A stretch of 43,241 nucleotides of DNA from Bacillota bacterium (GTDB lineage: Bacteria > Bacillota > Sulfobacillia > Sulfobacillales > Sulfobacillaceae), in contig JAJZZA010000026.1 in assembly GCA_021797825.1 (NCBI GenBank), positions 1-43,241 on the forward strand, given 5' to 3'. Under the pieces are notes generated by a model. The model was not told the origin of the DNA. It ran no database searches and was given only the letters and a program-made list of their open reading frames with translations. Shown here piece by piece: positions 1,309 to 36,255 of the stretch (the stretch's first letter is position 1; each line of letters starts with the position of its first letter). Position numbers and translations under genes: made by a program.

Positions 1309-2604
1309 TTAGGATTCCCCGCCGGGCTCTAAGGGGGGCGAGCTAGTCAAAGACTGGCCGCATCGGGTGCAAAAGCGCGTGTGGGGTGGATTGGTCTGGC
1401 CACACGCGCAGGGGATCCGGGTGCGTTGCCGCTGCCGCCCTCTCAACACACCCCAAAGCGCCAGCGCCACGGCCGCGAGGCTGGCGCCGCCGACCTCCGC
1501 CACATGGACCCAGCGCAACGTGTGCCATGTGGCCGAACCGGTCCAGACGTAGGCCCTGAGGGCGCTCGTATGCTGATTCAGGCGGCCTAGGAGCGGCAGC
1601 GACCAGGGGGACGCCGCCAGCGTGACCGCGCCATTCCAGCCATGAGCCGTATGCAGGCCGACAGAGGACCATGCAGACGGCAAAAGCCAGCCGTGGGCCG
1701 GCAAAAAGGTCCAGATGGCGGTATGGCGTTGCCACCAAAACGTGGAGGACACCGCGGCGGTAAAAAGCCGCAGGGTCCCCCATGGTGCATGCAGGCCGGG
1801 TGTAAGGGTCAAAGCCGCGGACCAAGTGGGCGCCCCATGGCTGAGGTACTCGTGGGCCTGCGGATCGGTAACGTGCCACCAGGCGCGAATGGCGCGGCGC
1901 TGGGCCGCGGAAAAGCGCATCGTCCAGGTGCCGGTGAACCGCGGGTGGGGGCCCAAGTCCGGCTGGAGCGTCAGCCGATAGACCGGAGGAACCCACGTGA
2001 CGCCGAAGTCCGGCGCTTGGCCTAACTGGTTCGTGACAGCAGCATAGGACGGCTGGCCGGAAGGCACCGTCCACGGCACGATAAGCGTATCAGTGCTGGC
2101 GCTGCTTTGCCAGTCCCCGGCTTGGCTGTTGCCGGCATTTTGGAGCGCTTGGGTGACCCAGTGCCACTGGTAGCCTGAGCCGTTGTCCGGATCGTGGATG
2201 GTGTACGTGTAGGCCCACGGCACGCCGGAATCCTGCATGGTCACCGGCTGAAAATGGCGGGCGCCGGTGGCCGCTTGCAAGATCTGATTCAGCTGCCGAA
2301 TCGAGCGAAAATGATCCGTGATGGTCCAGACCTCTTGGCCGTTGTGGACCACAGGTCCGCTCACCGTGGCGCCAGGAGGCGCATGGTGTTGGAGCAACGC
2401 CGTCACTTGCGCGAGGCTCAGGCCGCCGTTGCTTTGGATGTCGCTGGCGGTATCCGAGCCGGTCCAGACGATCGTGCCAGACCCGTTCGGCGCAATGGTG
2501 GTCTGGACCGCGGTGGTGGCGCCGCACCCGGCAAGACCGAGTGCGAGCAAGCCGCCGCCTAGAAGCCAGGTCCAGCGATGACTCTCGGGACCGGAGAGGT
2601 CCAG
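1309..2604 (-). CDS. Lipoprotein-like membrane protein with C-terminal zinc ribbon
   Basis: The N-terminal part reads RWTWLLGGGLLALGLAGCG, a lipoprotein signal with lipobox LAGC. An outer domain of about 300 residues rich in Trp, Thr and Ser follows. Then comes one membrane segment (GGASLAAVALALWGVL), a basic stop-transfer stretch and a C-terminal zinc ribbon (CACGQ, then CTRCGQ). The layout recalls LppM/DUF3153-type lipoproteins (weak recognition). The start is uncertain. TTG at 2550 would leave only seven residues before the lipobox; CTG at 2604 has GGAG eight bases upstream and gives a full signal. No ATG or GTG is in frame, and the upstream DNA is a ParA relic, so the native 5' end may be lost. 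Confidence 0.6.
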   Translation of the reverse strand: MDLSGPESHRWTWLLGGGLLALGLAGCGATTAVQTTIAPNGSGTIVWTGSDTASDIQSNGGLSLAQVTALLQHHAPPGATVSGPVVHNGQEVWTITDHFRSIRQLNQILQAATGARHFQPVTMQDSGVPWAYTYTIHDPDNGSGYQWHWVTQALQNAGNSQAGDWQSSASTDTLIVPWTVPSGQPSYAAVTNQLGQAPDFGVTWVPPVYRLTLQPDLGPHPRFTGTWTMRFSAAQRRAIRAWWHVTDPQAHEYLSHGAPTWSAALTLTPGLHAPWGTLRLFTAAVSSTFWWQRHTAIWTFLPAHGWLLPSAWSSVGLHTAHGWNGAVTLAASPWSLPLLGRLNQHTSALRAYVWTGSATWHTLRWVHVAEVGGASLAAVALALWGVLRGRQRQRTRIPCACGQTNPPHTRFCTRCGQSLTSSPPLEPGGES

Positions 2605-2852
2605 CCCGTCAACTCCGCCAATTGCGGTTGCCGGTCCCGTTGTTGCGGATGGTCCGCCGGCAGCGGCAAGTCCCCATAAATCGTCCGCCGCGCCAAGGCA
2701 TCGGGGCCAAAGCCTAAACTGATGGTCAAGCTGCCTTGGTCAACGGCCAATCAGCAATTCCCTGCCATCGCCAGTCCCCATCCGAGGTAGGCCACGGTGG
2801 CCGTCTTCCCCACGCCGTCCTGCTGATTGATCAGCGCAAGGCCCCGCGGGCC
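2559..2852 (-). pseudogene. ParA/Soj-type ATPase fragment
   Basis: Minus-strand frame with LALINQQDGVGKTATVAYLG, a deviant Walker A of the ParA/MinD family (canonical KGGVGKTT). It then reads GLAMAGN, an in-frame TGA at 2753-2751, and SLTISLGFGPDALARRTIY, the stretch after the ParA switch region. It lacks a start codon and the last two thirds of the protein (about 250-290 residues in the family). Together with the internal stop this makes it a relic. It lies between release factor 3 and the lipoprotein-like gene and overlaps the latter's possible start. ParA relics usually come from plasmids or integrated elements. Confidence 0.65.
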
Positions 2853-2876
2853 TTAGCTTGACCCCGCCGATTTGCC

Positions 2877-4442
2877 CTAGCCCGCGGACTCGTCCGCCAA
2901 CTCGCGCAGAATCAACCCGGGCGTCTTTTCGAGAAGACGGTCCAAGGTCCGCAGGTCCTCTGCCAACACGACATGACGTCCATCTGCGTCGCGAATCAGG
3001 CGCGCACGGTCAAAGCGCCCGATCTCGGGATCCGGCCCGCTGGCGATACGGCGAGCCACCGTATACGGCAGCGTACGGAGCGTAATGTCCACCCCATATT
3101 CCTGCTGCATGCGATAGCTGAGAACGTCAAATTGCAAGGATCCGACAACGCCCAGGTACACCTCCGGTCCATCCTCAAGCGGAAGAAACCGCTGAATCAG
3201 CCCCTCCTCGGTCAATTCCCTGATCCCGCGCTGAAATTGTTTGTGCTTTAGCGTATACTTCAACTCCACCTCGGCAAAGATTTCCGGGGTGAACCGCGGG
3301 AATGCCGCAAATGTGATGCCAGGCCGAACCGTCAAAGTGTCGCCAATACGAAACAGCCCATTGTCGTGCAAGCCAATGATGTCGCCCGGGTAAGCCGTTT
3401 CCACAATCGTGCGGTCCTGAGCCAGAAATTGCTGGGGTTGATTCAGCCGGATGCTGCGTCCGCTTCGCGGATGCAGGACCGTCATGCCCCGTTCAAACAT
3501 TCCGGACACCACCCGCACGAATGCCACCCGGTCGCGATGGGCCGGATTCATGTTGGCTTGAATTTTAAAGACAAACCCGGAAAAATCGGCCTGCTCGGGA
3601 CGCACCTCCCCGTCGGCAGTTGCGCGCGGCATCGGCCCGGCGCTTAGCCCAAGAAATCCGCGCAAGAATGTCTCGACGCCAAAATTGGCCATCGCCGACC
3701 CAAAAAAGACGGGGCTCAGCAGTCCGGATTGCACCGCCTCGTCATCCCAGGGTTCGGCCGCGCCATTCAGCAACGCCTCGGCTTCCGCCAGCGTGGCGCG
3801 ATGATCGTCCGCCAACTCCGCTTCCCGGGCCGGAATCCGCCTACTGCTTCGCGTAGTGCGCTGAAATGTTTCAAATGAACCCTCGTCGCGGTGGTAGAGC
3901 CCTTGAAACTGCGCTCCGGAACCAATCGGCCAGTTTATCGGATAGGTCAGCAGGTCCAATTGCCGTTCAATGTCGGCCATCAATTCCCACGGATCTTTGC
4001 TTTCCCGGTCAAGCTTATTGACGAAAGTCACCACCGGCACAGCCCGCCGCCGGCAGACCTGATAGAGTTTGCGAGTCTGCGCTTGCACCCCTTTCGCCCC
4101 GTCGATCACCATCACGGCGCTATCGGCCGCCATCAACGTTCGATACGTGTCTTCCCCAAAGTCCTGGTGACCCGGAGTGTCCAACAAATTGACCCGATAC
4201 CCCTCGAAGGGGAACTGGAGCACTGTCGTCGTCACCGAAATCCCGCGTTGCCGCTCAATTTCCATCCAGTCTGAGCGCGCATGGGCTTGCGCCCGCCGGG
4301 CCTTCACCGCCCCGGCTTCCCGAATCGCGCCCCCGAATAGCAACAGTTTTTCGGTTAGGGTGGTCTTGCCGGCGTCTGGATGCGAAATGATGGCGAACGT
4401 GCGGCCGCGGGCCACCTCCGTCTGCCAATCGCTTGCTGCCAA
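2877..4442 (-). CDS. prfC: Peptide chain release factor 3 (RF3)
   Basis: 521 residues, the usual RF3 length. It is a ribosome-binding GTPase that recycles RF1/RF2 after termination. Visible GTPase motifs: G1 SHPDAGKT (20-27), switch I with ERQRGISV (63-70), G3 DTPGH (88-92), G4 NKLD (142-145). The stretch DSAVMVIDGAKGVQAQT and the C-terminal RF3 domain with FAEVELKYTLKHKQFQRG distinguish it from EF-G. Start TTG at 4442 follows AAAGAGGGG. It is transcribed away from aconitase; the two share an intergenic region of 158 bases. Confidence 0.93.
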   Translation of the reverse strand: MAASDWQTEVARGRTFAIISHPDAGKTTLTEKLLLFGGAIREAGAVKARRAQAHARSDWMEIERQRGISVTTTVLQFPFEGYRVNLLDTPGHQDFGEDTYRTLMAADSAVMVIDGAKGVQAQTRKLYQVCRRRAVPVVTFVNKLDRESKDPWELMADIERQLDLLTYPINWPIGSGAQFQGLYHRDEGSFETFQRTTRSSRRIPAREAELADDHRATLAEAEALLNGAAEPWDDEAVQSGLLSPVFFGSAMANFGVETFLRGFLGLSAGPMPRATADGEVRPEQADFSGFVFKIQANMNPAHRDRVAFVRVVSGMFERGMTVLHPRSGRSIRLNQPQQFLAQDRTIVETAYPGDIIGLHDNGLFRIGDTLTVRPGITFAAFPRFTPEIFAEVELKYTLKHKQFQRGIRELTEEGLIQRFLPLEDGPEVYLGVVGSLQFDVLSYRMQQEYGVDITLRTLPYTVARRIASGPDPEIGRFDRARLIRDADGRHVVLAEDLRTLDRLLEKTPGLILRELADESAG

Positions 4443-34449: not shown

Positions 34450-35064
34450 GTGGAAAAGAAGCCGATTTCGCTGCGCGACAAGCGGCGTCAAAAGACCGCC
34501 CGTCGACGGACGGTGACACGCCCGGCCGTCCACCGCCAAGCCTTGCGCTCGCCAGGCGATTTCGACGAGGTCTTGGTCTACTGGCAGCGATGGCTGCACA
34601 ATCCCTTTCAAACCGCGGGGACATTACCCTGGACCGAACGCATGCTGTGGGGCAACGCGTTGTTGGCCGGGATCCTGCGGGCCGTGATCTTGCTGTTCGA
34701 ACAGAATTTCAACATTATGCTGTTGGTCAGCGCGGTATTGAACACCTTGTTCGTGTTTTTCTTGGTGTACTACGCGATGACCTTTGTCGTGGGCTGGGTC
34801 CTCGCACGAACCGGTACCCGCTTCAAAAATATGGACGGCCTGCGCACCGAAACCGTCGTCCTGTCCGGTTGGTTGGCGCTGGTGGCGATTGCTGCCGTCA
34901 TTCCGGTTGCTTATGTGCTTGATGTCGCGTTGCTGGTATTTGTGGGATTGTTCACCCGCGCGGTGATGCGGGCCACTCGCGCCCCCTGGTGGCGGTCGGC
35001 GCTGGCGACACTGACCGGAAGCGTCTTAGTCCTCGCGGTGCTGTCGTTGCTCGCCCATTTGTAG
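34450..35064 (+). CDS. Membrane protein of unknown function
   Basis: 204 residues from GTG 34450, preceded by GAAAGGA. The cytosolic N terminus is very basic (KPISLRDKRRQKTARRR). A possible amphipathic stretch follows (EVLVYWQRWLHNPF), then about five hydrophobic helices (LLAGILRAVILLF; MLLVSAVLNTLFVFFLVYYA; VLSGWLALVAIAAVIPVAYV; VALLVFVGLF; LTGSVLVLAVLSLLAHL). A Yip1-like arrangement is conceivable but not established. It is 22 bases upstream of the glutaredoxin-like gene, in the same direction, so the two are likely cotranscribed. Confidence 0.7.
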   Translation: MEKKPISLRDKRRQKTARRRTVTRPAVHRQALRSPGDFDEVLVYWQRWLHNPFQTAGTLPWTERMLWGNALLAGILRAVILLFEQNFNIMLLVSAVLNTLFVFFLVYYAMTFVVGWVLARTGTRFKNMDGLRTETVVLSGWLALVAIAAVIPVAYVLDVALLVFVGLFTRAVMRATRAPWWRSALATLTGSVLVLAVLSLLAHL

Positions 35065-35086
35065 TCATAAGGAGGTGGCAACTGCC

Positions 35087-35341
35087 TTGGAGCGCTCCGT
35101 GGTGGTCTATACGCAACCCGGCTGAAGCGCCTGCCGAGCCGAGATGGCGTGGCTGTCTCAAGTCGGACAAGCGGCCGAGGAACGCAATGTCATGAACAAT
35201 TCCGCCTACATTGACGATCTTTTGCGATGGGGTTCCCGGTCGACCCCCACCACGGTTGTACAACGGGGAACGCAGCAGGAGATCATCATCGGATTCGACC
35301 GGTTCCAACTCGCACACCTGCTTGGGCTCACCGCGCCCTAA
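35087..35341 (+). CDS. Glutaredoxin-like protein with UGA at the catalytic Cys position
   Basis: TTG 35087 with a perfect TAAGGAGGTGG upstream opens 85 codons to TAA 35341, broken only by TGA at 35123-35125. The product begins MERSVVVYTQPG, then UGA, then SACRAEMAWLSQ. Glutaredoxin/NrdH-like proteins read ..YTQPGC-x-x-C.., so UGA falls exactly on the first active-site cysteine and the second is retained (U-x-x-C). The rest is intact, including the cis-Pro segment RSTPTTVVQRG and the glycine-Asp region IIIGFDRFQLAHLL. It may be a selenoprotein (a SECIS-shaped hairpin follows) or a recent nonsense mutant (TGC/TGT to TGA). No selenocysteine machinery is visible in this window. Confidence 0.65.
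35133..35153 (+). other. Bacterial-SECIS-like hairpin after the UGA
   Basis: GCCGAGCC (35133-35140) and GGCGTGGC (35146-35153) form eight positions: six Watson-Crick pairs, one G-U and one A-G mismatch. The loop GAGAU begins with G and starts 16 bases after the UGA. The published bacterial SECIS model wants a loop about 16-37 bases from UGA with a G in its first two positions; this fits at the near edge. GC-rich DNA makes chance hairpins common. Confidence 0.4.
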
Positions 35342-35427
35342 GACGGTGTCTCCGAGCCGATGCCTGAATGGATCATCCAACCCGTGCGCGGAGCAATGGA
35401 CAGCTTCCGTCCGGCTCATCATTACCC

Positions 35428-35501
35428 GGCGGGCTCATACGCCCCGCCCGCGCTCGGGGCTCGCGCCCGTGGGAGCGCCCAGCGGAATGAGCCGGCCCGC
35501 C
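35428..35501 (+). repeat. Long nested hairpin downstream of the glutaredoxin-like gene
   Basis: Outer arms GGCGGG-CTCAT (35428-35438) and ATGAG-CCGG-CCCGCC (35487-35501), with inner CGCTC/GAGCG pairing. It could terminate the membrane protein-glutaredoxin unit. No U-tract. Confidence 0.4.
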
Positions 35502-35642
35502 TTAACTCCGCGTGCATCGGCCAATCACACGATAGGATCCCATTGGATAGATCGAGTCGTGGGCCAACCCTCAAAAATTGACTTTCCTGCCTACGGGAGG
35601 TAAGGCGTATCATGAACAACTGCGACTTTTTGCGGTCTGGCT
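35502..35642. other. Non-coding stretch, nothing recognised
   Basis: Between the hairpin and the response regulator relic. It holds a GGGAGG site followed closely by a short ATG frame (35612) that stops soon after. No gene supported. Confidence 0.4.
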
Positions 35643-35828
35643 TCAACACCCGAGTCCATTTTCTCCCGGGAGCATCACATCGAACACCGACAGGGCCGAC
35701 CCCCGACTATTAGGCCGTATAGGGCGGTTCCGGTTTGGAGAAGCAACCACACGATAGCTATCCCTAAGATACAACCGCAACCGCGCCAACACGGTCGGAT
35801 CATCGTCGGCAACGATTATTGTCGTCAC
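35643..35828 (-). pseudogene. Response regulator receiver fragment
   Basis: GTG 35828, with GGGGGAAT upstream, gives TTIIVADDDPTVLARLRLYL, the first strand and acidic pocket of a CheY-like receiver. A non-homologous stretch (ASPNRNRPIRPNS) follows. VFDVMLPGENGL with the phosphorylation-site Asp comes next, and then a stop after about 61 residues. The middle looks frameshifted and the second half of the receiver and the output domain are missing. Non-functional relic of a two-component system. Confidence 0.6.
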
Positions 35829-35994
35829 GGCGCATTCCCCCACTGCCATAAACCATCTCTTGTGCCGTAGTGTAGCCAAGACCAAGACCAGTCCCCCACC
35901 CCAACGACCCATGCCGGCCGGGGGACACCCGGCAACCAGCACCGCCCACAAACCGGCGGTAAAGTGCAGGCCAACAAGCAGACGCTTTACTCAC
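35800..35994 (-). pseudogene. Possible histidine kinase C-terminal relic
   Basis: A minus frame contains GWGTGLGLGYTTAQEMVYG, which resembles the G2 ATP-lid box (GTGLGL...) of sensor kinases. It ends overlapping the response regulator relic, as in kinase-regulator operons. Flanking residues do not match a kinase, so confidence is low. 35995-36255 has no recognisable gene. Confidence 0.3.
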
Positions 35995-36255
35995 CGAAGG
36001 TTCACGCTTGATCGCGCCCGGACCACCGTCACCAGCCGCTGGCGCGCTCGGCCAGGCTGCAACCGGCTATGGCCCGTGCCAGCTCCAGCAAGCGTCCAAC
36101 CGGGGCGCGCGATGGGCTCTCCCGGGTCCGCCGGAGCCGGGTCGCTGGGCCTATCTGATCCCAACCGATATTCGCCTGGCCAGGCCAAGCGCCCCCACTC
36201 AACACCCGGGGGCGCTTCGCTCAATGCCGTAAAAGGGGAATCCCTTCGCTTGAGA

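Follow-up and report, generated by a model that had tools for sequence, protein, structure and literature searches.

A glutaredoxin-fold gene with a conserved in-frame UGA and a covarying hairpin as a probable selenoprotein gene of a Bacillota bacterium

The analysed stretch of DNA (43,241 nucleotides; hereafter, the window) contains a gene that very probably encodes a selenocysteine (Sec)-containing thiol-disulfide oxidoreductase of the glutaredoxin fold, its in-frame UGA being recoded via a hairpin, a reading to which we assign a probability of about 0.94. Computation yields the gene itself, the Sec machinery of its genome, a UGA conserved among relatives, a hairpin under selection and a predicted fold, from which we infer Sec insertion and redox activity. 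The gene was originally picked out in a first-pass annotation made by reading the sequence without tools; standard annotation could well truncate such a recoded gene at the UGA.

The 85-codon frame constitutes an intact glutaredoxin-fold gene in which TGA is the sole internal stop: the translation runs through LERSVVVYTQPG, reaches the internal TGA at codon 13 and continues with SACRAEMAWLSQVGQAAEERNVMNNSAYIDDLLRWGSRSTPTTVVQRGTQQEIIIGFDRFQLAHLLGLTAP up to the terminal TAA (Table 1). This is in line with the first-pass annotation, which had located the lone internal stop at the first catalytic Cys and had described a ribosome site along with retention of the second Cys, the cis-Pro and a proper stop. 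For family scoring, the TGA read as Sec was entered as Cys in the programs. With the UGA thus read through, the protein exceeded the gathering cut-off of the Pfam Glutaredoxin family PF00462 (30.1 versus 22.9 bits), bearing out the glutaredoxin-like identity originally proposed.

A fold model derived from a 34-row alignment (pLDDT 95.8, pTM 0.86) indicated the protein to adopt a strand-helix-strand-helix-strand-strand-helix topology, and its best PDB matches were cGrx1 of Clostridium oremlandii (7C10, 7C12) and also BC3987. Eight positions are invariant in all 34 rows (G12, U/C13, C16, L23, G49, T53, P54 and G69), which means that neither the resolving Cys nor the cis-Pro is ever lost. Model, PDB matches and invariant residues alike identify a glutaredoxin fold with a C/UxxC active site and the cis-Pro TP motif. 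The position of the glutathione (GSH)-binding GGxD motif of classical glutaredoxins is occupied by GFD, and the reductant therefore need not be glutathione; as far as sequence can tell, this replacement points to an NrdH/YruB-like protein rather than a classical GSH-dependent glutaredoxin.

Table 1 Coordinates of the gene, its signals and related features (window positions unless a locus is named)
Feature	Location	Strand	Remarks
Predicted Sec-glutaredoxin CDS	35087..35341	+	TTG start, TAA stop, 84 residues, Sec at residue 13
Shine-Dalgarno-like AAGGAGG	35069..35075	+	11 nt 5' of the TTG start; read directly
UGA, predicted to be read as Sec	35123..35125	+	In-frame, first active-site Cys position of UxxC; here U-S-A-C
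Resolving Cys16 codon TGC	35132..35134	+	Invariant across the 34-row alignment
SECIS hairpin	35141..35159	+	8-bp stem GAGAUGGC/GCUGUCUC, loop GUG at 35149-35151
Upstream hydrophobic protein gene	34450..35064	+	~204 residues, no Pfam family; GTG start chosen by us
YruB-like glutaredoxin, TPT-U-PHC	L001 (G000 contig C31)	minus	UxxC gene; 91.5 bits, above the TIGR02196 cut-off
Protein disulfide oxidoreductase, TPT-U-PYC	L001 (G000 contig C31)	minus	UxxC gene; TIGR02187, 174 bits versus a cut-off of 185
Second tRNA-Sec-like genes in relatives	L065 2052-2142; L066 1869-1959; L044, L045 1858-1950; also L073, L074, L075, L077		

The genome to which the window belongs (3.59 Mb in 156 contigs, 97.5% complete) encodes SelA (544 bits), SelB (345 bits), SelD (351 bits) and a tRNA-Sec (74.8 bits) with, according to ARAGORN, the anticodon UCA. 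Absence of the Sec machinery, which the first-pass annotation had named as a refutation of its claim, is ruled out by the finding of selA, selB, selC and selD. At least four further genes of this genome carry UGA at expected Sec positions. Among them is selD itself, with an in-frame TGA at SKSG-U-ACK, as well as the gene for the formate dehydrogenase alpha subunit (659.9 bits, slightly below the cut-off of 666), whose TGA lies in SCNRT-U-HAPSVAGL, the canonical Sec site of this enzyme. The other two encode a YruB-like glutaredoxin and a protein disulfide oxidoreductase; these UxxC genes are found near each other, at 1501-1680 and ~2480-3117 on the minus strand of L001. A Sec-containing formate dehydrogenase and a Sec-containing peroxiredoxin have been reported for Sulfobacillus, which may, at a guess, be close to the order of the window's genome.

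Homologues were matched in 40 of 42 searched genomes of the order. As the first-pass annotation had proposed to check, relatives carry either UGA or Cys at exactly the codon in question: 35 distinct close sequences, the window's included, have TGA, and six have TGT or TGC. Given that so many distinct sequences share the TGA codon, chance is excluded, and its recurrence across many genomes makes a misread base at this position very unlikely. The nearest relative of the window gene is only 55% identical, so the comparison is one between species. In a broader sample of 398 Bacillota genomes, UGA-bearing relatives proved widespread; matches outside the order scored at most 76 bits, compared to 95 and 108 bits for the two members that this search found within it. 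On the protein tree, many forks of which are weak, a label test found the Cys forms scattered, with five changes, at least two of them forced by well-supported branches. Both genomes of genus g3 carry a Cys form (L021, L022), and in each of them SelB and tRNA-Sec both failed to reach the cut-offs. A point against the Sec reading is the TGA copy (L059, on contig C120 of G012) that one of these two draft genomes additionally holds; it may represent a misplaced contig, missing machinery or a dead copy.

The SECIS hairpin begins 15 nt after the UGA. Across 34 UGA sequences its stem pairs in 91.2% of cells, one pair varying between A-U, C-G, U-G, G-C and U-A, and pairing drops to 35-64% in slid versions of the stem. 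Double compensatory changes occurred in 19 cells compared to 4.8 in shuffles, none of 500 shuffles being as high. Because the stem sits inside coding sequence, synonymous recoding was used as a null, with every sequence recoded and 2000 draws taken. UGA forms average 7.29 of 8 pairs, as opposed to 5.00 ± 0.14 under synonymous recoding (maximum 5.54 in 2000) and 6.72 ± 0.08 under within-column codon shuffling, although the probabilities attached to the hairpin should not be read literally because the counts ignore shared ancestry. The Cys forms average 5.0 pairs (null, 4.31 ± 0.22), the outer stem being mostly lost. The window gene has the hairpin fully paired, and its synonymous null attains 8 pairs in 1.3% of draws. 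At the apex, the Ala codon is GCG in 28 of 28 UGA forms versus 35% elsewhere in the same genes.

With its GUG loop, 8 bp, 23 nt and -8.1 kcal/mol (hairpin alone), the element falls within the published constraints of the bacterial SECIS (bSECIS) model (PMC13188914). Thus, a covarying SECIS, which the first-pass annotation had suggested looking for, exists within published geometry, but it is not the hairpin with a GAGAU loop that had been put forward. Folding a 40-nt piece does give the latter as the structure of minimum energy, below the conserved hairpin, which counts against the main reading; as a conserved element, however, this fold (stem GCC/GGC) was rejected, with 58% of cells pairing across relatives and one double change. 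Rfam gave no gathering-level match anywhere in the window.

In analogy to established selenoprotein biology, the hairpin would recruit SelB carrying Sec-tRNA-Sec, which would decode the UGA such that Sec is placed at residue 13 and translation continues to the TAA. In the resulting protein, Sec13 would attack substrate disulfides and Cys16 would resolve the bond.

Could the gene instead be dead or misread, its TGA having replaced a Cys codon through mutation or misreading, so that no full-length product arises? The fairly long end branch of the window gene (0.5) and the lack of a recognisable intact gene just after it would fit such a scenario, yet 34 other distinct sequences share the TGA at this codon, the frame beyond the UGA retains every invariant residue as well as a stop of its own, and the hairpin is fully paired, so we consider a pseudogene or sequencing error very unlikely. 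Slightly less credible still is SelB-dependent readthrough in which the tRNA delivers Cys or another amino acid. A title cited in PMC8762117 offers a non-canonical tRNA-Cys as precedent for such readthrough, and relatives do possess Sec-like tRNAs called as tRNA-Cys; their anticodon, however, is GCA and not UCA, while in the window's genome a UCA-bearing tRNA-Sec is accompanied by SelA and SelD, which make Sec. An altered genetic code, with UGA as a sense codon throughout the organism, we regard as the least plausible of these alternatives: no support for it was found, TGA otherwise serves as an ordinary stop that terminates 9 of the 33 long ORFs in the window, and in the recoded genes examined UGA falls on Cys/Sec positions. 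The Sec-glutaredoxin interpretation of the first-pass annotation, in contrast, is supported by the machinery, the UGA and Cys homologues and the covarying hairpin.

In genus g5, four loci likewise have a gene of the type encoding the upstream hydrophobic protein 5' of the glutaredoxin gene, and the linkage is thereby seen in two genera. This hints at a function shared by the two proteins, perhaps in membrane redox upkeep. Three other relics with in-frame stops had been described in the first-pass annotation; one weak response-regulator remnant (35646-35951, minus strand) was seen, within the ~900 bases 3' of the gene (35342-36255), which are devoid of a recognisable intact gene. A DNA search with this stretch returned no meaningful copies in relatives. 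Relatives also possess a second tRNA-Sec-like gene of ~90 nt, called by ARAGORN as tRNA-Cys(GCA), which in genus g8 is located directly downstream of the glutaredoxin gene. These tRNAs, reminiscent of the published selC-like tRNA-Cys of Firmicutes (PMC7609411), were rejected as UGA decoders, since they carry the anticodon GCA and one of them is a tRNA-Ser.

Sec-glutaredoxins are an established and experimentally verified class (PMC7642778; PMC13188914), and the window gene therefore belongs to an already known kind. Its closest structural counterpart is cGrx1, whose native form is a selenoprotein bearing a U(C)PxC motif (PMC7642778); it shares the fold and leads the PDB matches both in structure and in sequence. 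The two are ~30% identical, the window motif is U-S-A-C instead of UPxC, and cGrx1 is described as GSH-reduced. NrdH redoxin (TIGR02194; PDB 4HS1) is alike in fold and active-site position, but the window protein reaches 27.7 bits where the cut-off is 85.75 and has Sec where NrdH has Cys. The UXX-star (seleno)protein families NF041212, NF041211 and NF041114 are likewise small and glutaredoxin-like and place Sec at the first position of the active site; however, the window protein stays below the NF041212 cut-off (34.8 versus 66 bits; tested homologues at most 55.1), and UXX-star family 1 is listed as UxxT, whereas the resolving Cys is invariant here. Among NCBIfam models, YruB (TIGR02196) scores highest for every tested member, yet membership was rejected at 41.1 bits (tested homologues at most 70.7; cut-off 88.55), in contrast to the YruB-like L001 gene of the same genome, which passes. 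Since every tested member falls below the YruB and UXX-star cut-offs, the order-level subfamily seems uncatalogued. We lean, with little more than even confidence, towards an uncatalogued, order-wide Sec-glutaredoxin subfamily that has a distinct type of SECIS (apex GCGUGGCU, invariant) and more than one Sec/Cys exchange with hairpin decay, tied in some lineages to a functionally uncharacterised membrane protein or to a Sec-like tRNA-Cys gene. With relatives that differ at one codon and a hairpin that decays where Cys replaces Sec, the subfamily lends itself well to the study of Sec/Cys exchange as a natural experiment.
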